From Favolaschia claudopus (taxonomy: Eukaryota > Basidiomycota > Agaricomycetes > Agaricales > Mycenaceae): 64,000 nucleotides of DNA. A model generated the notes under the pieces. That model did no database searches. It saw only the letters and a program-made list of their open reading frames with translations, and had not been told where the DNA came from. Of this stretch, positions 32,319 through 57,032 are shown piece by piece (position 1 is the first letter of the stretch; the number at the start of each line of letters is the position of its first letter). A program made the translations under genes and the position numbers. The stretch covers positions 124,001 through 188,000 of the forward strand of contig JAWWNJ010000134.1 in NCBI GenBank assembly GCA_037176885.1. The letters run 5' to 3'.

Positions 32319-32324
32319 CAAAGC

Positions 32325-32348
32325 TTTGGGGGCCCTTATCGGACAAAA
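32325..32348 (+). repeat. Left terminal inverted repeat of the giant element
   Basis: The outer six bases are TTTGGG, then GGCCCTTATCGGACAAAA. It pairs with 57003-57026 with four mismatches. CAAAGC directly precedes it. Confidence 0.75.
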
Positions 32349-32372
32349 CCAGTGTTTTTGCACCTGAATGGT

Positions 32373-32585
32373 CGGGATCCTTAAGGATCCCGAGGGATCG
32401 GTCGGGAATGGTCAGGATCCCGATGATTCCTGATGATTCCCGATGATTCCCTAGGGATCCCGAAGGATTTTGAGTTTTTGTTCACAGACCGTTTATGTCT
32501 CCCGATATGGGATCCCTCGGGATCCCTGCTCCTGGGGCAAAAAATACTCTTCAATAATATATAAGACTCTGTCGGGATCCCGACG
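32373..32585. repeat. Left subterminal GGATCC array
   Basis: About six GGATCC palindromes lie in 210 bp, mostly inside larger GGGATCCC/TAGGGATCC palindromes. They are mixed with TGATTCC repeats at 32424-32450. The same motifs recur inverted at the right end, so they are part of the element and probably bind the transposase. Confidence 0.7.
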
Positions 32586-32840
32586 ACTCCCTACCTTTTT
32601 TCAAGCTGTCCCTGTCACGCTCCCGAGCGGTCCTCAAACCATCCAAGCTCTTTCCCTCGCGACCATGAGGCTCCCATCACCAGTCCAAGTCCTTGGCGCG
32701 ATAAGAAGCACTATTTTTAGCAAGCCAAGTCCCTGCTCCACAAGTCCGCAGCAGCCGTGCGACCGGGCCAAGTAAACCAAGTCAACCCAACCGCGGCCAC
32801 GTGAGTTTCATTGATTTTACCCTCCTTGCCTTCCTCCTCC

Positions 32841-34624
32841 ATGTCTGACGCACTGGAGAACCTTCGTGCTGCCTATCAGATCCTCAAGCGCAATGTTATA
32901 CGCACCCTCCGTACTCAGCGCGGGGCAGAGACCCAACTGACCTTCCAAGTCAACGAGGCGTTACAATTTTTCGAGGCTGCTGAGCTTGTACGCTACGGTT
33001 ACCTTGCTGATACATTCTCACTAGTCAACTAACGCTGCCTCTTAGCATCGCAACATCATTCCTGCTGCAGAGTACGCCACAGTTGAGCAGAGCATCACGG
33101 ACATGATCTCCGACCTCAACGACGCTCGACACCAGTCATCTGACCCCCCGACTGGCTCCCGTATCACTGTAACGACTCGCACCAATACTGGTGGGCGCCC
33201 TCGTATCGACATTGACCCCGCCTTCCTTTCCCATGCCCTGACTCTTCGTGGGCCGACCCATCTCGCGGAAGTCTTTGGCGTCGCTCCTCGCACGGTGCGC
33301 CGACGAGCGCTCGAATATGGGCTGGCTCAGCCTGGAGCCCCTGTCTATGTCGACTCACCGCAGGCCGACGGCTCAGTCTCTCGTGTTTACACTTCGACCT
33401 CAGCCCCTATGTCCACCCTCACTGATGAAGAGCTTGACGGCCTTCTTGCGGACATCTTGCGCACATTCCCCAACTTCGGCAGACGTATGATAAAGGGACG
33501 CCTCCGTGCTGCCGGCTATCGTGTCCCCCGCGAGCGTATTGCCGCCTCTTATTTGCGGGTCCATGGCTCGCCAGGTCAATTTGGTGCTCGTTTTATTCAC
33601 CGTACTCCCTACAATGTAGCGGGTGCCAACTCTCTCTGGCATCACGACGGTCAACATGGTGAGCTTTTCTTTCTCCTTCCTTCACTATCTCAAGATCTCA
33701 CTTTGCTTTTCTAGGCCTCATCCGATATAAGATTGTCATCCACGCTTTCGTCGACGGCAAATCTCGGTTTGTCACCGGGATCCGCGCAAGCAGTAACAAC
33801 CGTGCTGAGACAGTTCTCGAACTGTTTCTAGCTGCCGTCGAGCTATATGGGCTCCCCAGCCGAGTACGGGGTGATCATGGCACAGAGAACATCCTTGTCG
33901 CTATTCTGATGGAGAGTGAGCGCGGTGTGGAGCGTGGATCGTATATTTGGGGCAGGTCAGCGGAACTTGCACACCGAGTCTCTTCATGTTACTCACCGTG
34001 ATCTGCAGAAGCGTCAACAACACTCGCATAGAGCGGCTGTGGTACGACGTCACCCACGGCTTTGGCCATAAATGGAAGTCTTTCTTCCTCGATCTCGAGG
34101 TTAACCATGGGCTCAACCCGACCATCGATGTCCACATTTGGCTCCTGCACCATCTCTTCCTCCCATCCATTAACGCAGATGCGCAGGAGTGGGCTGATTC
34201 GTGGAACGCACATGACCTCCAGATTCGCGGAGAGCGCACACGTTCCCCTCGCGATATTTTTCTGTTCAGCATGCTGCAGGACGGACCTCGTGGGCTTGAG
34301 CGCATTGTCGACGCCCCAGATGATGATGTGGCAAATCCCTCGACGTACGGAGTCGACTGGGACGTCATGGACGACCCCGCTCTCATGCGCCACCATCTCA
34401 TGCAAAATCCGCAGGCATGGGCGGACCACAATCCATTTGCGCCAGGGGTGGAGGATCTCTCAGACGTCCCGTGTGAGCCCCCCTCTTGCCCATTCACTGC
34501 AGAGCAGCTCCAATTCCTGGACGACAATCTGCGAGCCGTAGTGGATGTCACTTCGCGTAGTATGGAGATTCGGAAGATTGTTTGGAAGGAGGCGTTTAGA
34601 ATATGTAATGAGTTTTATCAATGA
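32841..34624 (+). CDS. DDE integrase/transposase, IS3/retroviral (rve) type
   Basis: Four exons (32841-32987, 33046-33658, 33715-33955, 34009-34624) give 538 aa. Residues ~130-150 form a helix-turn-helix of the type LAEVFGVAPRTVRRRALEYG, followed by a region like the IS3 'HTH_21' linker. The rve core has Asp250 (in WHHDGQH), Asp307 (in RGDHGTEN) and Glu342 (in NNTRIERLW), a D-x-D-x34-E set. The segment FVDGKSR and the NNRAETVL stretch after it match an animal and fungal family of integrase-core proteins that I link to IS3EU transposons. The C-terminal 190 residues are lineage-specific. It should cut and join the element's ends. It is the leftmost gene, read inward, and a TATATAAG lies near 32558-32565. 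Confidence 0.9.
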
Positions 34625-34754
34625 ATGGACATTATATCAATACGTGATGCGAATGAAGGAATTAATATCTGCCGCTAAATAGCACCCGCGTCCTATCCAT
34701 CAATTCCCTAAGCGCTTTCCTCCCCCTCTACTTTTGCCTCCGTCTCTTCATCCC

Positions 34755-36284
34755 ATGCCACACATTCTGTCTTTTCCCACCGAGGTCCTAGATGAAATCT
34801 TCTACGATTGCCTCCCCTCCCCAGAGCTTACGGCGATTTCCACCTTTGATTCTGCTCTATTCATACATCCCTCATGCACTTCTGCTCCTCTTCTCCTGTG
34901 CCAGATCTGCAGACGATGGCGTCTTATTGCAATTTCTACTCCGCGACTATGGGCTTCTCTCAACGCGGAATTTACAAAGCGCTCAGAGCTTGTCGAGATT
35001 TGGCTTAATCGAGCGCGCTCACATCCGTTGTCGCTTAGGCTTGGTGAGTCTCAGTGATCATTCATACTATTTCCTACCTTATGTGCTGAGTTAGGCCGTC
35101 CAATATTACATCCTCACCAGCCTTGGTACTCCATCGAAGCTCACCCGCATCTGCCGGATAATGTCTACGCCGGCTGGAATCCACGTCATCTCCCCCTTCT
35201 TCTCCCAAAATTCCCCCAATGCGAACGGCTTCACATCACGGATATGTGTTTCCCACCTGGCTTCCAGCCTCTCGCGCTTCCCCTCCTCGAGAGCATCTCA
35301 TTCACTGAGAACTCTGAACGACGCTCAAACGCAGCTACAGTCATGTCTCAGCTGCTACTCAATGCACCTAAACTGCGGCAAATGCATTGGCATGGGCCCC
35401 GCTTCTCTGCGCACTGGCCTAACCTGTCACACTTCAGTTTGAAGACACTTTGGTTTGCTGCTGACAGCCATCCAATCTCCTTGCTCACCCATGTCACACA
35501 CCTTCGCTTGGATTTTCACCCACATTGGCAAACTGCGATCAACCCCGAAATCTACCTCCTTCCCAATGTCACAACGCTCTTTCTCAGTGGCTATGATTCC
35601 AATCTTGCCAGCTTTCGTCTGCCGGCTCTCCGCCACCTCATTATCGGAGACCCCTCGTGTGTTTGTGAGGACCATGATACAGGGTCTATCGTTCACCTCC
35701 TCGAGCACTCCCACTGCACGCTCAACATCTTTGAGCTTTCCGAGCGGGCACATACAGCAGACTTTCTGACATTGCTCACGCATCGAGCCGTCGCCCCTTC
35801 CATAACGGCGCTTGTTATCTCGTCGTACCACCTCAACGAACTCTTTGAACGGCTGGAACGGGATATTCCCGGAACCTTGCCAGACGTTGTGAAACATCTA
35901 CGTCCCGTCGACCGGTGCTTTCACATTGACTGGACGTATTTGGAGGCGACAGCGGGAATCTTGGCTTCCCTTCTATGCGCCCAGTTTCCTCTGCTCTGTC
36001 GCCTCACGCTTGACGACATATTTGAAGGTCAATTTATCACAGAATCCCGCACCCTTAATGTTCCCGGCAGCAGCGCTCTCACCGTCAGACGGAATTCCAA
36101 CCTACGTCAGGCGTATGATGCATGGTGGGTGGCGTTTAAAGCAGAGACTCCGGAAAGTACCTTGAAAGAGGTTGGGAACATGGAGATACCGTTGGGTATT
36201 CTTAGCGATCACATATATAAACGCTCGCAGGGTAGCCAATACAGCTCTGGATACTTCAAGCTGAAGCTGCGATGGATACCCTGA
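34755..36284 (+). CDS. F-box protein carried by the giant element
   Basis: Two exons (34755-35043, 35095-36284) encode 492 aa; an ATG 21 nt upstream is an alternative. Residues ~4-65 are an F-box of the mushroom type (LSFPTEVLDEIFYDCLP, later LLLCQICRRWR and STPRLW), closely like the host gene at 4532-5965. The C-terminal part has irregular leucine-rich repeats. It starts 130 bp after the integrase stop in the same direction and is convergent with the dioxygenase gene, 88 bp away. It is either captured cargo or an element gene using host SCF ligase. Confidence 0.85.
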
Positions 36285-36372
36285 CACGGTGCGATGTAAC
36301 GATTCATTCAACACATTTTCTGGTTCACAATTACCGCAAACACTCTGAAATATATATACGAATGTATCTAAA

Positions 36373-39300
36373 CTACAACTCAAATTTATTTCGACTTATG
36401 GCACGACTCAACTTGCACAAGGTGTGCTCCACCATGAAGACGTCAAAGCAAATCTCGTCACGAACAACGGGAGGGAGATGTGCTTCCAGGGTCTCAAACA
36501 CCGTCTGAAATCCTCGTGTACAGTCCGCTGCAGTTGACCGCTTTGGTTTCCCCTTCGCATTCAAAGGGCGCGGAGGAATCAGACCAAGTTTTTCCAGTCC
36601 AGCAACTGCGCCCTTGTTCATCCACCAAATTGCCTCGCCCATCTCCTCGATGGTCGGCGGTGAGACGAGTTGGGGGCTGGTGTACGTGTAGTCGACGGCG
36701 AGGAGATATGAACCAAGCGGACCAAGATCCATGAAGCGGGGTGCGTTACCAACCCTGCCCCTCAGCCACTTCCAGAAGGTGGTGAAAGGCACAGCGGATC
36801 GGCCCTGATCACGCTCCCTCCGCAGCAAACCCTCAAGGTTTTCTGTTCGCACTGCAGCGCTGTAGTTGACCGCAAGACCGACCGTTCGTCCGTTGTTGTG
36901 AGGCCCGTAAGCAGCGGGATTGCAGAAGAAACCCGGGGCTGGATCCTGGCCATGCACACCACGATAGACCTCCGCCGCGTCGTCCATAGCCCTCTGGAAG
37001 TCGGCGTCGTCAGAATAGCGCAAGCGGGAAAGACGGAAGAATTCTGTTCCAAACGTGATGCCTCGGAAGATCAGGGCGCTGAGAAATCCAGAGTTCGTAG
37101 CAGCAAAGTCTCTTGCGAAGGGTCCCAATGGGCCGGCAGCGCGGCGTCTCGACGGCGCGAGCTCTCGGAAAGGACAAAAGTAGTCCATATCCCGCTGCAT
37201 CGTCTCCTGCCAAAGGGTCGGTGCGGGCAGCGTAGTACATCGCGTGGCTGCCAACGCCTCGTCAATGAAGTTGGTAAGCCGTATGAGTCGGCGATTCGGA
37301 GGGGGAGCGAGCTGAGACGTAGACGGTTCCGATGACGTAGCCTGTGAGATAAGACGGCCGACTGAAGAGGGAGCGTTGGTGGTAGAAGAATTGGTGAGTC
37401 GTGCGAGCCGGTGATTTGGAGACGGTTCTGATGGTGCGGTGCGGGAGATGAGACGACCGACTGACAAGGTAGCGTTGTTGGAAGGCAGCTCCTCGATCGG
37501 CATTTGCTGGCCAGGCGAGGCAACAATGTGCTCAGGGGCCGATGCCTGAGGTCTGCGAATCTGGCTAATGATCCCCCCCACCCGCACCAGCATCTGAGAC
37601 TCTTCGCTGAAGCGGCTGGCCAGAGGATGGGCCTGGAGCTGAGCACGAAGGGACGTGAACTCGCTCTCACAGTGCTCCCGCGCCGTAGAGTCCCCAAGGA
37701 TGTATTTACGCACTTGTGTATGTGCGCGCCACACCTCCTCCAACAGCAGTGCTTGTGGGCCAAGCGTGTCCGCAATAGCCTGAACCAGCCACGCTTGATA
37801 CCGAGCCATACCATCCACAGGAAACTTCAGCCATGAGGCAATAATGCGGGTGCAGGTCTGAACGACGGCACGGAGCAGTTCATCGGCAGAAGGGAAAATG
37901 CGGTTGCGCCTAAATCAAACCGAAATTTAATGGGATTTCACAGCCGCAAAGCATGACTCACCGATTCGTATAATCAAATGTTGACGGCGCAATCGGGAGC
38001 CCATAGTTTGAAGACACAAAGGCATACGACACGGCGCGACGCTCAAGCGCCGAGGCAACATCAAACGCCAGTCTTTGTATCCACCCGGTCGGCGTACCCC
38101 CCCTCTGACGCGCAGACAGCGCCTCCGAGATCTGCCGAGGGCAATATGCGTCAAGCCATCGCCACGCAAAGAAGTTCGTCAGCATGATGCACTCCCGATC
38201 CAAACGAGTCTGCAAGGACGTGAGCGCCTGAGCACTTTGCAGCTGTTCCAGCCCCGACCATACGGCCGCAAAGTGGACGGCCGTCGTATCGGCAGCCGGG
38301 GACCAGATCAAGGCTGAATATGCTGCGTCCAGTGACGGGCACTCCTGCTGGGCGCCTGACTGGATGAACAACGTCCACGCCGCCTCAACATCTTCACAAT
38401 TTCTTGCAATAGCCTCCCGCGTGAGAGCGGCAACCAACGCATTGGATCCTAACAAGCAAAATAAATTGAATATAGTTATCGAACATCATCAGCTCAGTGT
38501 CTAACCTGGATTCCGACTCGCCCTCAGCACACGCACACGTCCCTCCTCCATCGCCCCCAAACCAGCCCTATTCCATTCCGCGCTTTGCTGGTGTTGTGAA
38601 CGGCGTGTTGTCCGGTTCATGGACGGCTCAACCACGGCCTCCGTAGCCGCGCGGGTGTACGTTTGAGAAGCCCAAGCGCGGCGTGGAGGAGGGGCAGGTA
38701 CCGGTGATGCTATGTCTAGAACTGATCAGAAAGGTGCAAGGTATACAGAGAAAACTCATACCTCCAGCCGTCTGCGCTGTTTGTCGTGTACGTTTGCGTT
38801 GGGGCTCCTCTCCAGCATCTGATGAATGCAAGTCAGAGAGAGTGAAAGAGAATCGTAAGATGACTGACCAAGGCGCCCCTCGTCTACCTCCCGCCTCTTC
38901 CCGAGACTGGATCGCAACCTACGCGGCGACGAGTCATCCCTCTCGCTCTCCTCATCCCCTAAAAACACAGTCAATGCACAGCGTGATGTCGAAGACGTCA
39001 CACTCACCTCCCTCCTCTCCAGAACCTTGCCCTGCCTCCCCTGCCGTGCTTGTGCTGTCTCCTGAAAACCAAGTTAGAGAGAAGGCATGGATGTGTACCA
39101 TTCGACATACCTGCGTTGTTCATCTTGCGCCGACGGCGGCCGGCTACCGGAAGCTTAGCAGCAGAGGGCTGCTTGGCTCGGACACTGGAACGTGTGGCAC
39201 GAGGGGCCTTGGGTGCCGCCGAAGCGTCTGGAAGTATCTCTGCATCCGTCTCGTCTTCCCCCTCCTCCGTGTCCTCCTCCACCACCACCTTCTTCTTCTT

Positions 39301-41603
39301 GCGAGTTGCCTTCGGTTTAGCGGGATCCTTTGACTTCGCCGGCGCACTTCTCTTGCCACCCTTTGGAGCACTGGGGGGATTGGTGGGAGCTGGCTGCTCA
39401 TCGCCCCCGTCGTACTCCTCAACAAGACCGTCTGCAAGAAAGAAAAAGTGTCGTTAGCTTGGGAGCAGACGCAAAGCAAGACACACAAACCATACACCGC
39501 TGCCGAGGGTTTCGGGATGTGGTGCGGCAGCGGACCCTTGCTCCCAACCGACGGAATATGCATCGCGGCCCTAGCAGCCCAGGCGTCCCACGTCTCCCAC
39601 GCCTCGGAGCGCACAACATCTTGGTCAACCATCTCATCGTCGGCACACTCAACTCCATCCACCCACGGCCGCCGTTGACTCTCGGGCAAGCGATGGCCCG
39701 GCGCAAACTCCCATGAACCGGTATTCACCCGCTTGCCATCTAGCTCGGTGGTGATGGACTGGAGGAAGAGGTCGGGATCAATCCGGACCTTGTAGTGCGA
39801 GGGGAGTTGGAGAAGGAAGTAGTAGACCATAAGGAGAAGGGAGCGAGCGATGAAAGTGACGAGCGACTCTTGGTCCATCATGAGCACGCCCTCACGCACA
39901 AACGATGCCCGTGTCGTCGTCGCAGGACCCGGCCAGCCCTTCTCGACGCGGTTCGTTACACTAGAAAGAAGACTCAGAAGAATTCCAGCGGCAGAAAAAA
40001 ACAGCACGAACCCCGCGTGAAGCATCTCTGGCGGGAAGATGAAAGCTTGGTTGTTGGGAAGGGCACCAAGGGTCCAGCGTGCCGTGCCGTTCATCATGCG
40101 AGAGGGCGGGTAGAAGATGAGGACGAAACGGTAAGCAAACTTGTAAAGTTTAGCGGGCTCGCCGTTGACAAGGTTTGGGCTGCAAAGAGGTGGTGTGCCG
40201 CCGTGACGCCGCAAGCCGGAGAAGTTGATGGATGTGTGGCGATCGAGAACAATGAAAACACCGAGTTCGAGGATGTGAAAGAACCCGGGGGTGTATTGCT
40301 CACCCTCCGGCAAATCCTCTGGAAGATCGCTGTTGGCGCTCATGTGGGAGAAGTGGGCCGGGTCGTCTTTGTTATCGGTGTGGGCCCCGCCAAAAAAACC
40401 CATGTCAGACGCGAGCGTCGGCGCTGGAATCCCATGTTTAGCGGCATCCCGAAAACAGACAAATGGTGACGAGACTCACCGCCTTCCTCAGCGTCACTCT
40501 GCGGAACATCCTCCTCCTCCTCCTCCTCCCCCTCTGCTTGTCGCGTCTTCGGTCGTTTCGCCGATGCAACGTTCGCCTGACAAGTACCGTAGGGGTGGTT
40601 GGCTGCAACGCCTACCCGTGGTGTGTTGCTCAAGGAGGACAGCTGCTGTATACGCTCCCGCACTTCGCGCGGAGCCTCACTGAATGCTGCAGCTGAGATA
40701 GCTGCACCGGCCTAGCCAATCAATCAGCTGGGTCAAGCTGGATATGAGACGAAGAACGCACCATCAACAGCCGCCGACGAATCCGAGCATCATTCTCGAC
40801 CTCTTCGCTCGTCATTTTGGCGGCAGCGTTTGGAGCCACAATAGAGGTCGGGGACTCCCCTGACGGGCCCAACGTGTAGCATCGGGCCGGCGGCTGGACT
40901 GACTTGCAAATCTTGCTCCGCTCGTACGCAATGCCGCCGGTCGGGGGGTCGTGAGTGCGATTGCCCTTCTCGTTGACCTTGTACTTCGGTCGAGTGCGTG
41001 TCCGCAGATGACGCGGTCCAAGGAACTCGTCACGGGCGGCATCGAACTCGTCCAGCATCTCGCGGGTAACGACACGCCTATGAAATTCATATGAACACGA
41101 ATATCCAGCCGTATAGACTGAACCTCACGCACCCGCCAGTGACCCAACATTGAATCATGTCTTCCTCCGCCTGCTGAGACCCTTGGATGCTTCGCGCGAA
41201 GACCGCATCACCCTCGCGCAACTGCAAGAGTCCTAGAGAACTATTACACTGTGTACACAGATTGTGATTGACAATACGCACCTCTTGCCTTCAGTTCAGC
41301 CAATGTGCCGGCCGGGATTTGCCTCTGCTTCTCCCGAGCCCAAGTTTCCTTCAAGCCGGCAACGCTAGTGTCTTGGAAATAAACGTAGGTGGTGCCCGGT
41401 ATTCCCGCGCGCTGGGGGTGATTCTTCACAATGAAAAGGCGCGCGAGAGTCGGATCCCGACCGGGGAGTCTCAAGAACGGTGGGTGGTGTGAGTGGGTGC
41501 CGAGACGATGTCCCAACGGAGACGGTTTGGGTTTCGTGGGTGAAGAGTTTTGACGCGATGAACCGGCAGCAGCAGGAACTTGCCCTCGAAGAACGGGAGC
41601 CAT
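36373..41603 (-). CDS. 2-oxoglutarate/Fe(II) dioxygenase, TET/JBP-like, 1,537 aa
   Basis: Thirteen exons splice in phase: 41603-41282, 41232-41133, 41077-40762, 40711-40480, 40423-40012, 39960-39491, 39431-39111, 39061-39008, 38958-38869, 38818-38762, 38721-38506, 38448-37962 and 37909-36373. The dioxygenase core covers residues ~330-430: His338-x-Asp340 in GAHTDNKDD, the distal His397 in LRRHGGTPP, and Arg422 in YRFVLIFYPP, which would hold Fe(II) and 2-oxoglutarate. An acidic patch (GEEEEEED) precedes it. A long basic, disordered linker (KKKK, RRRRK) follows, suited to DNA or chromatin. The C-terminal ~700 residues are lineage-specific. TET/JBP enzymes oxidise 5-methylpyrimidines in DNA, and basidiomycete copies have been reported next to transposons. 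The DNA substrate here is inferred, not shown. Confidence 0.75.
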
Positions 41604-41678
41604 AACGAAGGTGGTAGGGAGAAAGAGAGAGAGGGATGGCGGATTCAGAGCACCAGTGCGGCGTATCGTCGCCGCACA

Positions 41679-41729
41679 ATGACGCAGTTGGATTGGGAGC
41701 TTGCGCTCGGTTAAATCCAACTGCGTCAT
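41679..41729. promoter_or_regulatory. Inverted repeat upstream of the dioxygenase gene
   Basis: A perfect 16-bp inverted repeat (ATGACGCAGTTGGATT at 41679-41694; its complement at 41714-41729) is separated by 19 nt and flanked by further imperfect pairing to about 41659-41749. It sits 76-126 nt upstream of the ATG. A related pair with ATGACGNAGTT occurs upstream of the 197-aa gene, so it is probably an operator or transcription factor site. Confidence 0.5.
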
Positions 41730-42300
41730 CGTTCCGCGAAGATACGGCGTCGGATTCCCGCTCAATGATGCCGCGCTCCCCGCCATTGGCTGGACGACGC
41801 CTCGGAACGCCGCTCCGCAGCATTGATTTCCGCCAAGACATTCTCGTCTTGAATTTCTCCCTAATGCCTCCCCCTGCCCTACGCACAATCTCGTACGAAG
41901 ATGCGCGACGTCTACCTTGCGAATTTCACGCGGCTGGTATTGTTCAGCAGCACAGAGGGCAGTGGTTTCTCGACCTGTGCTTGTTGGGTCAGTACTACTT
42001 GCCAATGTATTGCCTTACGCCTTCTTACCGCACCTATTTCAGAGCACCTGTTGATCAAATACGGTATAGAATTGTGTTGCGCACGATAAACATTGTTGAA
42101 CTTAACCTCCAACCCTAGTTCGGACGACCGGAGTGCCCGCCGAAGCAGACGTTGAAGCGACAGACGGAACGGCGCACATGTGCGGAATGGAGAGAAAATG
42201 AATACGGATAGATGTACATTGTCGACGACTTTAAGAACATTTTATTGAAAGACAGAAACCCTCGGGGAAGACAGATGTTCGGTGACCCCGACTGACAGTC
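41730..42300. other. Spacer between dioxygenase promoter and non-coding core
   Basis: A plus-strand frame (41636-42118) runs through the inverted repeat and has no domain; I do not regard it as a gene. No other structure seen. Confidence 0.4.
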
Positions 42301-46470: not shown

Positions 46471-46599
46471 CTAACTAGTACAAGGTCAAACAAAGCAAAC
46501 TGAAATCAAATCAACCGGAACGAAGAAAGTAAACAAAAGAAATTGCGTAATAGGATGTATAGGTAACGAGTTAGTCACTGAATGATTTACAGTAGTGTT

Positions 46600-49500
46600 T
46601 TGTTTGATTTCACCCTCTTCCTCGCTCCCGAACGCAGTTTGCCAACATCAACTTCAATCTCGATCAACATCGATTCAACGGTTTGAATGGGTTAGATACG
46701 GATTCTCTAGACTCACAGGTACGTTTCTTGAACCTTTTTCTTCAGTCCTTTTCAACGTTTGATTGACCCGCTTTCATTTCTTCAGTTCGCCAACTTTTCC
46801 TACTAATTCAAACCAAACGTGCTAATTTGCTTCAACCGTAACAACAGGCTGAGGCGAGTTTTCTTTTAGTCTATTGCTTCGATCGATTCCAACTTCGTTG
46901 ACTCTCTTCTAGCCTTCAACTTTGACTTGACGAACACATTAACACCCAGATTCTGACTCTTTGAGGTGAAGATTTCAAGTCGTTGTGTTGTGTTCAAACG
47001 GTGCGTCGTTCTGCTCTTCTCGTTAATTCAGCTATCGAACTGACTTGTTCCTTTTCTACGTTTGCAGATCTAACGAATCCGGTGTTGTTTCAAGTCGAAA
47101 CCAGGGATTCAACTCGGGAGGTACGTCTTGCTGTTCAAATTTGCATAACAAGTCAACTGACTCCCCGCTCCTCTAGAACTTGAACTCTTACTATATTCTC
47201 ATAGGTATGTAAACCTCTATTTCTATGGTCGATTCAATCCGCTAACATACTCGCTTCTTGTCTTACAGATCCGAGCCCGTTTGACTGTTATGACCTGTTA
47301 TGACCTCGGATTGGGGGGGTCTTGGTTGGATTGAACCCGAGTCTTAGGTTCGGTTTAATTGGTGCGTCGCTTCAATTCTTTGAATTCTATTCGATTCAAC
47401 CTACTTCGCATGTCCTCGCTGATTAGTCGTGGTTCCGGTTCAAGCGTATTGAAACGAAATCAGTGCGTTGTTTTTCACGCCTACTTTCTCTTCAACATTG
47501 CTGACTTCGTTCTAATTGATAGCTATACGCGACAAGTTTTCTCTTGGTGCGAATCCTTGATTCTTACTCTATGCCCGTTCACTAACTTGGTTGCTTTCAG
47601 ATTTTAGACTCCATTTTCAAGCTCGATGGATTACTGACTGGGATATTGACTTGTACGAAGGTTGCGGCGGTTGAAGGTATGTTTGACTTGAATGTATCGT
47701 CTCTGATCCTCACTGACTTGGTTCAACTCTATAGCAGATGACGACGGCGCATCACAATGGTGAGTTTCTTGATACTCTGACTCGTAATAGCGCGATGAGA
47801 CTGACTACAACTTTTCACAGTGTCTTGTTGAATAGGCCGAAGGCATTGGGGTTAGATTGAGGGTCGTCGGTGTTGGCGGATGAAAGGTTGCTCTAGGTGC
47901 GTTGTCTTCAGTCTCTTTGATATTTCTTTCAACTTGCTGACCCTTTGATTGCCTTCACAGAGCGGGTGTTGTCAATTACGGGACGGACTTGACTTCCATT
48001 CAACTGAAAGGTGTGTGTTCGAGCTAACATTTCATTCAACTTTTTCTGAAACCAGGTCTTCCTTTGTGCTATAGCCTTCAAATGCGAAACTACACAGTGG
48101 TATGCAATAATTTAATTCATCATTGCTTCAATTGCTTCAAATCTGACCTTGCTTGCTATCGGACTGTAGGTATCGTTCGATACTCGGCTTGTTTCGGCGC
48201 CTCGGTAATAACCAAATCGACCTTGTTTTCTTACTCCACTGACTTCATTCCTTCAGGATACACTTGAATTCAATCCCTCGGCGTCTTCTATGAAGGATTG
48301 GGCTGTGGATATGAGAGGGAAATGAGTTTACTATTAAACAAGGTGCGCAATCGATTACTTCGCATATCTCACCTGATCTGACTTTCTCTTCATCCCAAGC
48401 CCTTGCTCGTTCGAGACCATGCTACCGTATACTGAGACTATGGTGGTGCGCACAGATTTCTCTTCACTTTCCACTTCACGCTTGAACGCTCGCTAACTTG
48501 AATTTTAAATCCCTCAAGGCCGAAACTACGACTCTTTGAATTCAAATCCAAAATCACCGATCTCTTTCACCTCAACGCTAACCCTATACAACTACGTGAA
48601 CCGATTCTGTTATCGTCTCGGGAAATTCTAACTGACTTCGTCTTTGAGAGCTAATCCTAGTTTCTGGTAGTTCAAGGAATTCTCGCTATACTGAAACTAT
48701 GACGGTGCGTTCGACGTGAAGTTATACTTCACGCCTTGCTCCACATTGACCGAACCCTCGCAGTCAGGTAGATCAAAACTATCGCGGTTTGAGTTGTAAT
48801 TCAACTCCGCCCGGTCCTTTCTCTTACGCCGAGACTACGCTCGCATTGTGAGTTGATTGTTGAATTGCGCGTGTGTTTTCAACTGCGATAGGTACGCGAG
48901 TATTGACTCGAGTCGGTACTGACCTTAACCTTTGAAGGCCTGCTTGTTGTTCAGGTAAGCTTTCATTCGTTCGTTCGGCTTCCTGTTGATAACCTAGTTT
49001 CGACTTCAATTCAAGTATCATTCCAATTCAACTTCAGGCAAGCTAGTTCAAATTTTTGTTTCGTCTTAATCTTATACTCGCCCTTCACAGGTTTCATCCA
49101 CATTATATTCAGAGCCTCACTTGAGTGGCTTCAAGTAATTGAGTTGAGATACACTCCGGAAAGCAATGCGCATTGACTCGGAAGTTGCACATTTCGACTG
49201 GTAAGCTTTATCGAATCCATTTTCAACATATTCTTTCATTCAATTTCGTTTCGATCTTTTCGATTCGCGTCGCGTTCGTCTCCCTTCAATTCAAATCACT
49301 CAATCATTCTTGCTTCCTTCCATTCACCGTTTCGACTGAATTGAATTGAGCGGTAGATTTGGAGGAGTCGAGCATGTTGAGGATTTCGGTGAGCCTCGCG
49401 TTCGGTTGGTTATGTACATTTCGAGTTGATACTGGAAATGGTTTCCAGTTACAATCAAACAACATAAATAGGACCTATTTCGCGTTCGAGCTTTACGCGC

Positions 49501-49700
49501 GGTTCATTGAATCTAATCGGGTTGACTGCGGGCGATTCAATTCAACACCGTTCGCCTGATTCACGCGAGTCGGATTTTCAGCTATGGATGGACTCAAATG
49601 TATTCCGTCCTGATTCCAATACAACAACACGAACACGCTTGTACAAAGGTAAAGAATGTCATCACAACTCCAATAACAACTTGGCTACAACTTTGCCTTG
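46600..49700 (+). ncRNA. Putative intron-rich non-coding transcription unit, right arm
   Basis: On the plus strand at least ten introns can be read with GT donor, CTRAC-like branch site and AG acceptor: 46719-46795, 47001-47067, 47121-47176, 47205-47268, 47362-47426, 47677-47737, 47760-47820, 47897-47960, 48011-48055 and 48100-48169, with more up to ~48.5 kb. Intron sizes match real introns elsewhere in the window. Exons are 20-100 nt. The exon 47821-47896 has stops in all three frames, so no protein can run through. It diverges from the left arm around 46.5 kb, suggesting a shared bidirectional promoter. Confidence 0.45.
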
Positions 49701-49741
49701 ACAAAAACTTGATTGACAGGTGGCTCGCTTTGACAAAGGCA

Positions 49742-50389
49742 TCAGCGGTGTGTAAACGAGCAGACGTGGAGAGCGTACGGTTCTTTGTCCTCGATCACCC
49801 AGGCCACGAGCGAAGGAATATCATTCCGGTCAACATGTGCTGCGCCAAAGTGGGAAAGAATATCGCAGCTGTCGACCTGCCCTCCCGCGGGCGGATAGCA
49901 AATGGTTACCATTCGTCTCGCCGTGCCGGTGGGTCCTAGGGTATATGCCCGAACGGGCGTCGGCTTGTGCGCGATGGGGACGATGTGGAAGATTGGCGGG
50001 GGGGCACTGTTAACGCCATCGACATCCGAGGAGGCGTAAACCGCCTGTCCTGCCCTCAAGATTTGAAAGCGCGAGTCGATATATTCACCTAAGTTGGAGG
50101 GAGATCAGCGAGTGACTGTCCGATAACGAATGCCGCACGCACCGGAGCTCGGGTGAACAAGCCGGTTGTTCATCCGCGACTCAACAGGCAGGGAGACATA
50201 CACGTCCAGAATGGCGTTGACTTCGGCCAAGTCAAGGGATGATGTGCTATCGGAGCTAGCGGCGGAGAGAGTGCCGTTTGGTGTGCCGGGCAGGGAAGGA
50301 GAGACAGATTCAAGGGCCGGGGGAGAGGAACAATCCGAATCAGACGAGTCTGAGGTGGGAGGGTTGCGTAAAGAAGGTGGGGAATCCAT
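49742..50389 (-). CDS. Element orphan protein, 197 aa
   Basis: Two exons (50389-50143, 50088-49742) with a 54-nt intron. The N-terminal 60 residues are Ser/Asp/Pro-rich and disordered. The C-terminal ~110 residues form a compact alpha/beta-looking domain containing FHIVPIAHKP, YTLGPTG and WVIEDKEPY. No family recognised. The YTLGP motif also occurs near residue ~220 of the dioxygenase protein (as YTLGPSG), which may be chance. A TTATAA lies ~30 nt upstream of the start. Confidence 0.65.
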
Positions 50390-50521
50390 CAAAGGTCGGG
50401 CGGGGAGCGGATACTAGTTATAAGCCCCGGGAAACATTTCCCGAGTTGATCGGAGATTGTCGATCGTGTTCCGGGCAAGTTCCGGGTAAGTTCCGGTCGA
50501 TGTGATTAAGGTCCGACCCTC

Positions 50522-50572
50522 ATGACGTAGTTGGGCTGAGAGCTAGCGTACCCAAAAATAGAACTCCGTCAT
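50522..50572. promoter_or_regulatory. Inverted repeat upstream of the 197-aa gene
   Basis: ATGACGTAGTT (50522-50532) pairs with the complement of ATGACGGAGTT (50562-50572) across a 29-nt spacer. It is related to the inverted repeat before the dioxygenase gene and placed 133-183 nt upstream of this ATG. Confidence 0.4.
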
Positions 50573-50634
50573 CGCCCGCGGTTCTCGGAAACGCCAAGAA
50601 AATCCCAACCGCTCTATTCGACGTCGATACTCTA

Positions 50635-52774
50635 CTAGAAGGTGAAGGCGTCAAGAACGGCCTTCACCTCTGCTTTGAACGCCTCCAATGAGATTGTGAG
50701 AGCCTCTTTCTCTGCACTCCCTGAGTTGTCCTCTAAATATCCATCGTCGATGTCGGATTCCTTGAGCATCAGCTTCAAAATTTGGTCGAAGCGCTGGAAC
50801 CGAGTGTTAGTGCCAAGGGGGGGCAGCACATAAGGGTTGCTGGGGCTAAAAAAGAGGGCAAGACGGCGACGAGCCACTCTCGCTTGGCCAACGTGGGTGC
50901 GCCCGTTATTAAACGTCTTCTTGATTAACCCTCCCGCAAGTACCACATCCAGGAAACCGATCTGAAAACCGTCGGCGACGACGGAGGCAGCGGGCGTCAC
51001 CCCAAGCGTGCCGCAAATTGCCTGAATGTGTTTCTCTTGCATGCAAATACGGTATCCGGTGCCGTACGATGCGGTGGAGGCGTGTGCGATGCGCTCATAG
51101 CGAGAGGCAAACCGCCGCTGGAGGTAGGTCCGAACACCATTATCTGCAGCAGCAGATCCTGGAGGAGGCGGTGGTGCCATGACAGGGGGGGCGGGAGCTT
51201 CTTGCGGTGCTGCAGCAGTGAGAGGCGCAACCGTGGGGGTAGGATGATTGACCGTTGGAAGGACGGGCGGCGGAAGTGAGCCGTGTATGCGAGGGTTTTG
51301 TTCGCTAGTGACATCCTAAAAAACTATGTGAGTCTTCCAATCAAGGGCGGAGTTTGTTTAAGAGCACTTACGCCATGAAAGATGTACACAGTATATACCG
51401 GCGTATGAAGCGCTCGTCCTAGCTGACTCAACAGCGCGGCGCATTCCTGAGAGTCAACCGGGATAAGATTGCTGAGTTCTGAATCAGCAGTGGCCTCCAG
51501 CTCTGCCCAAGTCCCGCCAAGTTCACGCCATCCGGTGCTCCAGTGCATATAATCCTGGCGAATGTCAGCGGGGCTTCGAAAGGCAGTACCGACATAAAAT
51601 TGTGAGCGATCAAGGCGACTGAGTCGGCGGCCAAGGGCTCCAGCAGAAAGGCGAGTAATGAGGGTTGCGTCTGGCGCGTCAGTCGCAGGAAGCGTTTGTG
51701 TGAAGGTCCTCCCCGACTCGCAGGTCTCCTGGACGGTAACAAGGTATACAGCTGAAAATACAGGTCAGCGCTGTGGATGTACGAGTTCATGAACGTTACC
51801 TTCCATCGGTGTTGGCGGGCGAATCACGTTGGGCACAGTGCCTTGAGAGGAACGGTCGGTCTAATCGTTATTGGGAGAACTGCAGCTTGGCTTACCACTG
51901 TCAACAGCTAGGGGGACGGGATGGGAACCTCCCTCAACGACAAACGGGTTTTCAGGGATGTCGTGTATGACGGCGCCAGCAGTACTTGCCCGATGCGAGG
52001 GATCGAGGTGCTCGATTTTTGAGATCAAGAGCTCGATGTGTTCGCGATATGTGAGTGCAGACACTGTATCAGGGGGTCATTGTGGAGATCCCCTGCCCGC
52101 ACGGATGGTACGCACCGTGCATCTCATTGAAAAACTGAATCTCACTCGTAACGTTTGCGTACGTCGCGTCATCATTGCCTGAGCCGAGTCAGTCAATACA
52201 TCTGCATAGGGGAGTTGTGTACTGACCGTCAGAGTCCACTTCCATGCGCGCGTTGCCTACAAAAGGTTTTGTATTGCAGCTTTCGAGCTCGGCACAACAC
52301 TCACGCGGAGGGAGTAGGCGAGAAGGAAGGTGTTCGTCGGGGACGCTGTTGCTTTCATCTGCGTGGGCATCAGCATCAGTCCCGGGCGGAGAGAGCCTGT
52401 GTTTATGCGTACGTCCAATATCAAAAACATCCGCATCTTTTCAACGTTAACGAGCAGGATGCAGCTGTGGAAGCGTTACGCACCTGTTCCGCCTTGATCG
52501 AGGTCCAGGTTATAGTCTGAAAGGATAAAGCAGCGGTGGTGAGTGAAGGGAAATGTGTGGAGATGGAAAAGAAAAGACTACCGTCTCCGAGGATCGGGCT
52601 GGGTGGATCGGAAAGCTCGATAGAGGGTTCTCGGACAAGCGGGATGCTTTGCCCCAACTCTTCATCGTCAGAGGAGTCTGAGACCGTTGTGGCTGAAGCA
52701 ACAGCATAGCTGTGGGTGACGTCTGCTGGGCGGGGAGCAGTTCGTGCTCTGGGAGGGTTGCGTCGGGGGGGCAT
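50635..52774 (-). CDS. Element orphan protein, 547 aa
   Basis: Nine exons (52774-52582, 52516-52484, 52358-52305, 52256-52227, 52178-52116, 52063-51896, 51841-51800, 51751-51372, 51315-50635) all splice in phase. The N-terminal ~110 residues are disordered (Ser/Asp/Pro). A folded region follows (TYREHIELLISKIEHL; VYLVTVQETCESGRTF; DYMHWSTGWRELGG), then a Pro/Ala linker (MAPPPPPGS), then a C-terminal helical domain with QRRFASRYERIAHA and ARVARRRLALFFSP. No domain recognised. It follows the 961-aa gene by 190 bp in the same direction. Confidence 0.7.
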
Positions 52775-52813
52775 GGTGAGACGCACGGAAAGGGGAGCGG
52801 ATTTGCGGTCGCC

Positions 52814-52821
52814 TTTTATAC
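52814..52821 (-). promoter_or_regulatory. TATA box of the 547-aa gene
   Basis: TATAAAAG on the minus strand, 40 nt upstream of the ATG at 52774. Confidence 0.55.
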
Positions 52822-52964
52822 ATCGGTCGCCAAGCCAATACTTCCGCAATCTTTGAAATTTTGTCGGCACGCGGTACATATCTTTGAAATTGTTTTGTGT
52901 CTCATGATATTTCAAACACAGCGATCATCGTGCTATTTGGTGAACAAGAATATTTTCTGTCTTT

Positions 52965-55900
52965 CTAACTCGTATTGTGCTCGCGATTCAAGAACTGAGA
53001 GTGAACCCATGCATCAAACTTGCTGGCGCAACGAACGTCAGTGCTCGGTCTCTCCAAAAGTATCTCCTTGAGATGGCGATCCAGAATAACATCTATGCTG
53101 AGGAAACACGTATGAAATCCAAGAGGTGTTCCCACGTTGGAGTCCTGTATATGCATTGAGTGCAAAAGCTAATGCGTGGCTGCAGTCAGAACATACCCCC
53201 ACATTACGCCCTTGGAATTTAAACTAGGACAACGACTGAGCTGCAAGCGAGAAAGAAAGTTCAAGGCAACATACGGAGATCTTCCATTGATCGTTGATGG
53301 GCAGGAGATCAGAGTCAGAGCCGCTGCGAAGAACAAGGTTAGCGCGCAGGATAGGATCATCGCAGTCGGCAATGAAATCGTCCTCAGTGACCTCAACGTC
53401 ACGCAGCTGCGGCGGGTGACCGTGGCCCTCGAGGTAGTGGTGGAGGCGTAACTCAAATAGCTTGACGAAGTAAGGCATTGTGAAATCAGCGCGGGCCCGG
53501 GTGACAGTATCGAAGCGGAGGTGGTCCCCGACATCGCTGATGGTTTTGACGCGCCGATCATAGAGAGCCACCAAGAAAGGCAGGGCTCCGAGATTACGAA
53601 TGGTCTAGACAGCGTTGAGAAGGGTTTGGAGAGGGAGAGATGGTATCACCTGTGCAAGTCGCATTCTCCCGATGGTGATATTGAAACCGTCTTGCAGAGC
53701 GAGGAATTCTGGGTGATTCCAGGGTGATGGGTGCCCCAACAGAATGACGGCGAAAGCAGAGACGATCCAGGCTTTGTGTTCTGCTGGGCTCCGGCCATTA
53801 CGAATGAGGTTGGGCTTGGTGAGGCCGCAACGTTAGTAAGCAGATAACATAATACGAGAAAGTGTCGCACCTGCATTCCCGGCATATGTTTAAGGATCCA
53901 TTTCCGCAAGGGATGGTTGGCGTCCATAGCTTGTGGCACCGGGGTGTCCCTGTGGAAGTCGTACCACATATACATCAGATCGTATGCGTCAGGATCGAGG
54001 TGAAGGAGGAAATTGGCAGGAATCTCCATGCCGTCTCGCCCGTTGATGAGAGCAAGAATAAGCCAGATGCTGATGGGCAGGGGAGCCTGTTGGAGGAGGA
54101 AGATGTGGAGAGCGAGGAAAGCACCGTGAGCTCTGAAGGTATTGATGCGCTCCGGAATCGCCTCATCAAGAGGGGTAAGCACGGGGTGATACATTCTTGA
54201 GCCTGCTGCCTGCTGCCAGAAGTGGTGGCTAGATGTGAGGACCGTGCAGGCTTCGCGCATCGCCGCACGCTCAGGTCCAGCGCCGTGGGTCTGATGCGAG
54301 TCACGTAGTCCGCTATGAGGCCCGTCAGTAGTGAGACAAAAGGAGGATCACGCGGTGAGACGTACACGCGGTAGAGGCGGAAGGGATGGAAGAACGAGGC
54401 CAGCGAGATGTTGTCCTCACATGCTATGACATCGCTGCGGCTAGTAAACTCCACGTCTGGGTCGACAGCACGTCGCTGAATATGCTCTAGGAGGTCGAGG
54501 AGACAGCCGGCAGCAGCGGAAACGGTGTTAGCGTTGATGGAGAGATGAGGGGCAGAAGCCACGTTGCTGTTGACACGAACTTGTGCATACACGTCGTTGG
54601 CCCATTCGAGAATATCGGAGGGAGGCAAAGCGTCTGCACCTATTTGAAGCGGGATGAGAGACGGCCGAGGGGGAGGTGGAGTCGGAGGAGGTGAAGGTAT
54701 GAATAGTGGTGCAGCGGGAATATCGATTCGAATCTGAAGGTGCGATCAGAGAAGATATATGCTTTGTCGGAGAAGAAAGCCTTACCGCGGTGGGAGATGA
54801 ATCAGATGCACATCGCGGGCGAACTCGACGTTCAAGAGCTGTCTGAAAGCCTGATAAGATGGACTGGACAACGTAATCAAATGAGAGTCGAGACGTACGG
54901 GGGTCTGAGGCGACCGTTGGCGGACGAGAGAAGGAGGAGGGGTCCGGTTGGTGCGAGGCGGCGCTGACGGTGCTGAGAGAGATCGCAGCAGGGAGTTAAT
55001 CTGAAATGCGACGAATCAGTTGTGCGTAATCAAGATGCAAGGAGGAATACCGCTGTCGCCGGCTCTACGGGGCAGTCGCCAGGATAACACTCAGCTGGGT
55101 CCTGTGGTTTGTTGGACTCCGCTGATGGAAGCGTACAGAGGACGCGCTCCCCAAAGCAGGGATGACTGCCGGTGAGAGGCTCAGCCGGGGTCGAAAAGCC
55201 TTCGATTGGACCTAGAAGGTGGCCGAAGCGCGGAGCTGCAAAAACGTGAGGCAAAGATATTGGGGATGAGCGAGAGAGCGCACCAATGAATATCATGACA
55301 CGGCCGTTGGCACCAGCAAGTACGTTTGCGAACTGGCCGGAAAGACGTTTGAACTCTGCGTATCCAAAGCGACCGTCGTTGATGTTGGGGTGAATGGAGA
55401 GCGTGTATTTGTCTTGCCTCCTGTTCATGCCGCACAGTACCCAGAGCTGACCGTCAAGCTGATCAGCATCGCCAGGCGGGTAATCGGATGGGAATGGAGG
55501 AAACATGAGCGAATGCTCCTCCATGTGGTAGAAAATTTGGCGATTGAAATCAGCGGGAGAGGCCTGCCCGGAGCCTGGGACGCTGATAGAAAGGACGAGG
55601 TGGTGTTGATTGAGCTGGGTTAGATATTTTTGGGCATGCTGGTTTTTGATTTTGGCGGGCGGCGGTGGCAGAGAAGGGTAGTATTCGGAATCAAGCTGCG
55701 ACGGAGTCAGCGGAGTGTTACAAAACATGAATGAAAGGAAAATGCACCGTATGAGGCCAGCAGACGACATGTATGTCAGTTTGTGGCAGAGAAGAGCCTG
55801 GATAGCCGCGCCGCGAAACGTGATGATTGACGAGGGTATTGAAAGGTCCGCCGCTCAAGGTCCGCAGAGCGCTGGACATTCGCCTCGTGCCGGCGCTACC

Positions 55901-56551
55901 TTGGACTGGAGCTGGCAAGCCCCGATAGGCGTCCATGAGTGGTTGACTGAGAGGAAGAGCGGGGGCAGCACGATGAGCAGCAGTGAGAGGCGCATTGGTG
56001 GTGGGGCCGGCAGCAGGCTGGGACAAGAGGGGAGCGGGGGCAGGGGCAGGGGCTTGTGTGAAAGGGGGAGGAGGAAGTGGCGCGCTGTATAGTAATCATG
56101 AGTCTTGGGCTGTCGAGGATAAAGCCAAGACACACTTACTGTTGGTCGTGAGATGGCCATGCGGAGGCACATACACATACTGAGGTCAGTTCCCAGCGAG
56201 CGTTGAGCTTGACGTAGGGAGGTGAGAGCAGTATAATGAGACGCAAAGGAAATCATACGGAGAAGAAGCCCCCGCAACGGGAGGCGGGGTTGCCCCCAAT
56301 TGCGAGTGCAGCGCGGCTGTCATTGGGATCCATCGCGTAGGCTTGATGACAAAACCATAGGTGTGCGCATCCACCGCATGGTTCATGAGGGGACGTTGGG
56401 ATCTTGGGCGTTGTAAGCAGCGTGCAGGAGCTCGAGGCTCAAGTCGACAGACCTTGCGAGTGATGTTCCTCTGAGCGCGTTCGTCCCAGGACAAAGTGAC
56501 CCAGCCTGTGCACTCGCACAACGTGCATCGTCCGCGCATGGTGAGAGCCAT
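52965..56551 (-). CDS. Element orphan protein, 961 aa, N-terminal zinc-binding motif
   Basis: Thirteen exons (56551-56453, 56402-56259, 56179-56136, 56084-55748, 55695-55284, 55235-55051, 55000-54899, 54863-54786, 54733-54366, 54312-53871, 53814-53650, 53604-53275, 53144-52965) keep frame throughout. Residues 9-52 hold Cys9, Cys12, Cys14 and then Cys42, Cys45, His47, His52 (CTLCECTGW ... CGGCAHLWFCH), a probable zinc site of a kind common in mushroom mobile genes. Pro-rich disorder lies at ~100-170 and ~400-480. The rest is folded. The last ~170 residues contain FELRLHHYLEGHGHP, DSDLLPIND and FHTCFLSIDVIL, reminiscent of segments annotated as HECT-like in agaric genomes, but this is unverified. 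It is the outermost gene on the right, read inward. Confidence 0.75.
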
Positions 56552-56764
56552 GAAAAGGAAGAGGGAGAGGAGGGGTGAAAGAAAGGAGTGAAGTCAGAGA
56601 GAATCCAAGACCATTACATTAAGATGTGCCGATTGTGGCGCCAAACGCAAGAAAAGATTAGGAACTTGCATGAGGCGATCGACAGCACGGGGCGCACAAC
56701 GCACCACTAATCACGCGGCGGACTTTGATCGTTACTGTTTGCCAAGCCGCAAATCCCGACCGTT

Positions 56765-56985
56765 ACGCAGGAATCATCGGGAGCGTCACATTAGAGTGAG
56801 AGTGGGAATCATCGGGAATCATCGGGCTCTTGAGCCGTTTTTTGGCAAATGAGGATCCCTGGGGATCCTCATCGGGATCGGGATCCCTAGGGATCCTGAA
56901 TAAACAGTGTGCATTCCCTAGGGATCCCTCAGGATCCTGACCATTCCTTAAGGATCCCCAGGGATCCCTAGGGATCCTGACAAAA
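56765..56985. repeat. Right subterminal GGATCC array
   Basis: About nine GGATCC palindromes, plus GGAATCATCGG repeats (inverse of the left TGATTCC repeats), lie just inside the right terminus. Arrays at both ends are diverged copies of one pattern. Confidence 0.7.
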
Positions 56986-57002
56986 CGGTGGGTCAAACTT
57001 AC

Positions 57003-57026
57003 TTTTGTCCAATAAGGGCCTTCATA
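57003..57026 (-). repeat. Right terminal inverted repeat of the giant element
   Basis: Read on the minus strand it begins TATGAA and then GGCCCTTATTGGACAAAA. CAAAGC directly follows on the plus strand. Confidence 0.75.
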
Positions 57027-57032
57027 CAAAGC

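Follow-up and report, generated by a model that had tools for sequence, protein, structure and literature searches.

Starships, giant transposable elements of the Pezizomycotina, carry a tyrosine recombinase and variable cargo. Another class of fungal element relies on a DDE transposase: complete families of IS3EU always have TA..TA termini (PMC10045372), and multi-gene relatives of IS3EU are already known. As far as the available sections of the paper describing it go, Styx of Zymoseptoria is mostly 7,927 bp long, has 36-bp terminal inverted repeats (TIRs) and four open reading frames (ORFs; transposase, GATA, CCHC and DUF3577), has been shown to be mobile with a 6-bp duplication, CATAAG, and has no counterpart found outside Zymoseptoria (PMC10853768). 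In the TET+ IS3EU elements of rusts and Tuber indicum, the accessible parts of the report place a TET/JBP gene between the transposase gene and an alpha-kinase gene, and give the rust elements TIRs of over 30 bp with ends TAYGG..CCRTA (Kojima 2025, PMC12730594); the same parts report no such element from Agaricomycetes, and their main text names neither Mycena nor Favolaschia. Here we describe a 24,702-bp element of the mushroom Favolaschia claudopus (Mycenaceae), which is very probably a complete transposon, with a fixed set of accessory genes of its own and a DDE integrase by which it likely moves in cut-and-paste fashion. It lies in a 64-kb stretch, the window, at positions 124001–188000 of contig C134 (JAWWNJ010000134.1); all positions are those of the window unless another contig of the same genome, likewise given a C number, is named. 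The genome searched comprises 264.6 Mb in 460 contigs. Our literature search covered open-licence papers and gives weak negatives: it returned no 20–25-kb element with this gene set, no paper on fungal IS3EU elements with cargo and none on the transposable elements of F. claudopus.

Ends, copies and unoccupied sites

The transposon occupies 32325–57026, and the interval 32319–57032 is the transposon with both of its target-site duplications (TSDs). Its left TIR (32325–32348, plus strand) is TTTGGGGGCCCTTATCGGACAAAA, and its right TIR (57003–57026, minus strand) is the inverse of TATGAAGGCCCTTATTGGACAAAA; the two match at 20 of 24 positions and are bordered by CAAAGC at 32319–32324 and 57027–57032. 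When the whole window was scanned for inverted 24-mers lying 1–40 kb apart with identical 6-mers outside them, this was the sole pair to reach at least 20/24, and two further pairs, both 18/24, consisted of GGATCC motifs inside the same ends. Those motifs form subterminal palindrome arrays at 32349–32644, where they likely serve as integrase binding sites, and at 56707–57002, with seven GGATCC palindromes in the left 320 bp and nine in the right 320 bp against seven across the 24,062 bp between. The TIRs, their flanking 6-mers and the inverted arrays thus stand as the first-pass annotation, made from the letters of the window, had described them.

That annotation had also proposed looking for further copies with the same ends, and these were found on C100, C136, C29 and C153. 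Left and right ends were searched separately and only the best candidates were scored, so that copies may have been missed. Both ends could be read in five insertion events, and in all five an identical 6-bp repeat borders them: CAAAGC on C134, GAATGC on C100, ATAATA on C136, GATACA on C29 and TCTCAC on C153. The terminal bases, TTTG on the left and TATG (inverted) on the right, are the same in every one. Single ends on C5, C38, C280 and C127 and at two places on C74 were not included in this count, nor were related left ends seen on C40, on C21 and at some further integrase loci. Small derivatives on C136, C120, C54, C245, C181, C93 and C279 have one left flank in common, and C136 and C120 one right flank; to judge from these flanks, they are probably a single insertion that was amplified within a larger repeat. 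No convincing small, complete relative with TIRs and a TSD was seen in the short integrase loci, whose flanks are too short for a conclusion; that scan yielded two perfect-palindrome pairs (at L033) and one 17/24 pair (at L040).

The copy on C29 is complete at 20,407 bp, its TIRs match at 20/24, and its genes stand in the same order as those of C134 (integrase, F-box-like, TET-X, repeat array, Y2, Y1); a further copy with the same gene set was among the checks that the first-pass annotation had proposed. The integrase genes of the two elements are only 68% identical in nucleotides (71–79% in amino acids by exon). Since so diverged a copy has the same genes, these genes are the element's own, and the idea of swappable, Starship-like cargo that had accompanied the original proposal is not borne out. 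The subterminal palindromes differ between the two, being GGATCC in C134 and AGATCT-rich in C29, while the outer 24-bp TIR is largely kept, which suggests a changed binding specificity of both integrases, as if the palindromes had shifted together with the enzyme. C153 is closer to C29 (88–94% identical where both align as single copy) and measures 38,690 bp between its ends owing to a nested insertion. This insertion, at about 449–465 kb of that contig, is marked by direct repeats, identical and no shorter than 1,264 bp, which lie 16.3 kb from each other, and may possibly be a long element of the long terminal repeat kind. The sequence of C153 from 441001 to 447999 was left out, and the comparison of Y2 does not cover it.

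The C100 copy, at 8,793 bp, corresponds to 32325–38080 joined to 53969–57026 and is without 38081–53968, with three bases common at the join. Because the break falls inside gene X, and the homology of X to C153 runs straight through that point, C100 is an internally deleted copy and the long form is ancestral; for the same reason we rejected the converse, that the missing 15.9 kb had been inserted into C134. Inspection by eye of the window sequence at the two break points revealed no inverted repeat. In the right flank of C100, the element seems to be followed closely by a gene, the start of which looks like a cytochrome P450.

Sites without the element were sought with a query in which both flanks were joined with a single CAAAGC. 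C169 aligns across this junction without interruption, at 83% over 2,095 columns with a 2,000-base query and at 76% with a shorter, 800-base one, and has one gap column at the join, no TIR and no element. A second paralog, on C10, also crosses the join, at 69%, and its right flank resumes at 88% past an unaligned stretch. An unoccupied site, which had been proposed as a check, therefore exists in this genome, in diverged paralogs rather than in another strain. Together with the copies, these sites support the claim that a giant, multi-gene DDE-type transposon inserts as one unit with a 6-bp duplication, and the alignments indicate that the 24.7-kb block is a genuine mobile unit. Of the two outcomes that would have spoken against it, host-like synteny and integrase copies with ends elsewhere, neither was seen in checks run in this genome only.

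Integrase and accessory genes

Next to the left end, as had been noted, lies an intact gene for an rve-type integrase of 538 amino acids (32841–34624, plus strand; exons 32841–32987, 33046–33658, 33715–33955 and 34009–34624). It matches Pfam PF24764 at E 2.6e-62, and rve at 1.1e-7 with 32.5 bits against a cut-off of 32.6. Its catalytic residues are D250, D307 and E342, the last two separated by 34 residues (DD34E), and the model has no cysteine before D250. The nearest sequences in the PDB are retroviral-type integrase cores (E 0.11–0.12), one of them named HTLV-2. Homologs at E ≤1e-20 numbered 570 among the 7,998 scored, and the 120 listed come, wherever an organism was named, from fungi recognised as Agaricomycetes. 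Relatives within the genome, from the best 80 of 717 candidates, amount to at least 125 matching stretches with 43–78% amino acid identity outside the close copies; given so many, integrases of this type are common here, the giant form being one branch among them.

The element has five gene units and not the six first counted, because gene models from other Mycenaceae unite the dioxygenase-like gene and gene X in a single protein; that it has several genes besides the integrase stands. The first of these, a weakly F-box-like gene (34755–36284, plus strand; exons 34755–35043 and 35095–36284), is intact in C100 and occupies the same place in C153 and C29, its protein being 33% identical between C134 and C29 over 460 columns. 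The gene reported at this position is thus present, and the F-box label given to it is weak. On the opposite strand, 36373–41600 encodes a predicted dioxygenase of the 2-oxoglutarate (2OG)-Fe(II), TET-like kind, whose exons fall between 41600 and 39001, and also the conserved protein X (36373–37909 and 37962–38452). The dioxygenase motifs are an HxD at GAHTD and a histidine at RRHGGTPP, and in an alignment of seven sequences H338, D340 and H397, as numbered in the spliced window protein, do not vary. We call it TET-like because of this HxD...H triad and because genes of that kind ride on fungal transposons, as stated in the available sections of Kojima 2025 (PMC12730594).

Searches for relatives of the dioxygenase-like protein, each of which scored about 8,000 candidates only, gave nine at E ≤1e-3 when a single query was used and thirteen when a profile was used. 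Combined, these are fifteen distinct proteins, of which eleven belong to Mycena, one apiece to Favolaschia, Roridomyces and Trametopsis, and one to an organism not named in its record. In nine of them (1,062–1,598 amino acids) the dioxygenase-like part is united with at least part of X, as judged for P0011 by tblastn, for four from a visible alignment and for the other four by eye; these are third-party gene models in which the joining could be an error. The dioxygenase-like part and X are thus likely to be one gene, as the relatives' models have it. P0011 is named in UniRef as a JmjC domain-containing protein, JmjC being another class of 2OG oxygenase.

Two further conserved genes lie toward the right end on the minus strand. 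Y2 (50638–52760) has 3' exons at 50638–51315 and 51372–51764, a provisional 5' part and 36–40% amino acid identity to C29, and the multi-exon Y1 (52968–56399), whose splice model is incomplete, has 37–60% by exon. Restriction to element copies was examined genome-wide for the second exon of X and for a piece of Y1. The X exon (513 amino acids; eight of eight candidates scored) has four full-length matches, on C134, C100, C29 and C153, and one further match outside the elements, a 102-residue fragment with a stop on C75. The 274-residue Y1 piece (20 of 20 candidates scored) has six matches at five places, C134, C100, C5 (two pieces), C153 and C29, none of them more than about 4.1 kb from the right end of an element. 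Judged by these matches, X and Y1 appear to belong to the element, being found in the genome only at its copies, bar the one X fragment.

The coding regions present in both C134 and C100 were compared by the method of Nei and Gojobori, with our own script, as the ratio of nonsynonymous to synonymous divergence (dN/dS). For the integrase (538 codons) dS is 0.233, dN 0.0033 and dN/dS 0.014; the ratio is 0.20 for the F-box-like gene (492 codons), 0.24 for the second exon of X (511 codons) and 0.10, on only eight changes, for one exon of Y1 (191 codons). None of the compared stretches has a stop in either copy, and dN/dS is well below 1 for the integrase, the F-box-like gene and X. Divergence differs between the two blocks that these copies share, with 352 substitutions in about 5.76 kb (6.1%) on the left and 98 in about 3.06 kb (3.2%) on the right (53972–57026). 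This mosaic suggests sequence exchange between copies.

The non-coding core

The large non-coding core of about 42.3–49.5 kb was correctly noted at the outset: only one ORF of at least 120 amino acids, at 45574–46125, lies wholly between 42119 and 49525. The core opens with an array of repeats of about 160–170 bp (42399–43556), a longer relative of which is present, inverted, in C29 and C153. For the ORF-poor part that follows (44049–49400), C29 yielded no match; related sequences occur elsewhere in tandem arrays. Its first portion, at about 44.05–45.1 kb, has matches of 88–89% at ten places, and elsewhere the matches are mostly of 66–76%, on many contigs, often as tandem arrays whose units recur about every 10 kb. 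The core of about 44.0–49.5 kb is likely a passenger of the C134 copy. No RNA of Rfam was matched in the window at gathering thresholds, and no tRNA. Intron-like motifs on the plus strand of 47–48 kb number seven, against a maximum of four in 200 base shuffles; the broader notion that both halves of the core are dense in introns failed this control and was dropped, with counts not above the shuffles at 45–46 kb (three, minus strand), 48–49 kb (two, plus strand) and 46–47 kb (zero, minus strand).

Arrays related to the core were seen on C109 (five copies near 10.3 kb, sampled at 435400–445399), on C7, C13, C19, C34, C36, C61, C161 and C5, and, with a period near 5.6 kb, on C42. One unit of the C109 array also holds an ORF that may be GH16-like. 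Within the core, the piece at 45386–46545 is common to the small derivatives on C136 and C93. A 28-bp direct repeat (96% identical) at 45293–45320 and 46545–46572 brackets the 1.2-kb segment that these derivatives share, as if the segment had been inserted with a long duplication.

Rival readings and known systems

We suggest that the integrase binds to the palindromes arrayed within each end, cleaves the DNA at the TIRs and links these to target strands with a 6-bp stagger. The TET-like enzyme may remove DNA methylation from the element and so keep it expressed, and the F-box-like protein, X, Y1 and Y2 may assist transposition or counter host control, with the core carried along. For C100 and small copies such as C136, either movement in trans or deletion after insertion is likely. 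Beyond the single locus, we propose tentatively, and at somewhat less than an even chance, that Mycenaceae harbour a lineage, so far undescribed, of giant DDE transposons: an integrase with a fixed kit (a TET-type demethylase fused to an X domain, an F-box-like ubiquitin adaptor and two further proteins). The parts of this kit would have stayed together across deep divergence because they overcome DNA methylation and host silencing and allow a 20–25-kb unit to move by cut-and-paste. Basidiomycetes would thereby have a DDE-driven way to giant mobile elements, independent of Starships.

Several points weigh against the reading as a complete transposon with its own genes, or against parts of it. 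The unoccupied sites on C169 and C10 are diverged paralogs and not the same locus in another strain, so that movement is unobserved; the target 6-mer has diverged in C169, and the single-copy target is there read by position, not by identical letters. The core of about 44.0–49.5 kb is without a match in C29, and what is conserved is the ends and the genes, not the whole 24.7 kb. The possible exchange between C100 and C134 would disturb the dN/dS comparison. Among the gene labels, the F-box match falls below its cut-off (19.3 bits on one exon against 24.3; E 0.099 on the whole protein), and X, Y1 and Y2 pieces, the latter two scanned exon by exon, have no Pfam or NCBIfam match. The TET-like assignment is one of motifs: Pfam scans and PDB sequence and profile searches gave nothing meaningful, the PDB matches obtained looking like chance or composition; a further histidine that could be the distal one (MLHAG) is variable; and both AlphaFold models of the dioxygenase-like domain, with a mean predicted local distance difference test score of 39, are unusable.

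One rival is a nested composite, in which several unrelated genes, captured or invading, came to lie in a small integrase element at this one locus. The 8.8-kb size of C100, with the same ends and integrase, the relation of the core to arrays elsewhere and its absence from C29, and the nested insertion that C153 does hold, with its long direct repeats, are all in keeping with such a history. C29, however, with 32% divergence in its integrase DNA, has the same gene order inside its own TIRs and TSD, which already refutes a composite origin for the genes; the C100 break within X, with 3 bp common at the join, is as expected of a deletion, and the searches with X exon 2 and with the Y1 piece led to element copies only, the one X fragment excepted. 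We regard this explanation as unlikely. A host segmental duplication whose borders resemble TIRs by chance would account for flanks that belong to a duplicated segment (C169, C10) and for the one left flank shared by seven contigs with small derivatives, but at C169 and, across the join, at C10 one flank runs into the other with no block between them, and five different TSDs accompany ends that are constant to the base. Refuted by the unoccupied sites and the distinct TSDs, it is left with a negligible probability.

Two known kinds of giant element were considered as well. According to the parts of the sources at hand, Polintons/Mavericks range from 15 to 25 kb (PMC6431247) and have an rve-type integrase and a 6-bp TSD (PMC10045372), so that size, integrase fold and TSD all agree with the present element. 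Against this identity, 20 ORF segments scanned (of 56 ORFs) gave no Pfam match to a polymerase, protease, ATPase or capsid, the TIR found is of only 24 bp, and the integrase falls in PF24764; nor was a protein-primed DNA polymerase B seen in the copies. We consider it very improbable. In favour of a Starship, a tyrosine-recombinase cargo element, the present unit is large, and its recombinase gene is the one closest to an end, with several more genes besides. Here, however, the recombinase is a DD34E integrase, no tyrosine recombinase was detected in the same 20 segments, no DUF3435 captain gene was seen in the copies, the ends are inverted with 6-bp TSDs, and the diverged C29 copy has the same gene set, leaving hardly any likelihood that the element is one.

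What was found at this locus and its relatives, TIRs, a constant TSD length, multiple copies and an unoccupied site, is what is generally expected of a cut-and-paste DNA transposon. Its nearest likeness is to IS3EU/GingerRoot, with which it has in common an rve-type DDE transposase core (PF24764 with D250, D307 and E342), TIRs, a 6-bp TSD in five of five events, no N-terminal HHCC zinc finger and a first catalytic D within residues 100–300. It differs in a left terminus of TT, with a right terminus of TA, in all five events, and in an integrase that is one of about five genes in 20–25 kb. As the TT..TA termini break the published TA..TA rule, we call the element IS3EU-like; it is not filed as IS3EU, and works like one. 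The IS3-like label of the first-pass annotation accordingly holds for the integrase type and the 6-bp duplication, and not for the termini.

Set beside the TET+ IS3EU elements, as far as these are described in the sections available (PMC12730594), our element shares the 6-bp TSD and a TET/JBP-type gene beside the transposase, here TET-like by motif, and differs in its F-box-like gene, X, Y1 and Y2; no alpha-kinase was matched by Pfam in the 20 ORF segments scanned, Y1 and Y2 having been taken exon by exon and not whole. With Styx, again from the accessible part of its description (PMC10853768), it has in common an IS3EU-related integrase, several extra ORFs and a 6-bp duplication, but it is about three times as long and has another gene set. 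The described multi-gene relatives thus carry few genes, four ORFs in 7.9 kb in Styx and genes for transposase, TET/JBP and alpha-kinase in the rust TET+ elements, as those partial sources give them, whereas the family described here appears to mobilise 20–25 kb as one unit, with a gene set that is constant between copies differing by a third in integrase DNA. Mushrooms thereby gain a giant-transposon system with defined ends, a TSD, an intact integrase gene, diverged relatives and internal-deletion derivatives.

The comparison with Starships is one of analogy only. Both are giant fungal elements with a recombinase near one end and many genes, but here the enzyme is a DDE integrase, the TSD is of 6 bp, and the gene set, being the same in a diverged copy, is fixed rather than swapped. 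Questions that have been raised by Starships, such as the limit on size, the retention of accessory genes and the protection of transposons by a demethylase, become testable in a different class of enzyme.

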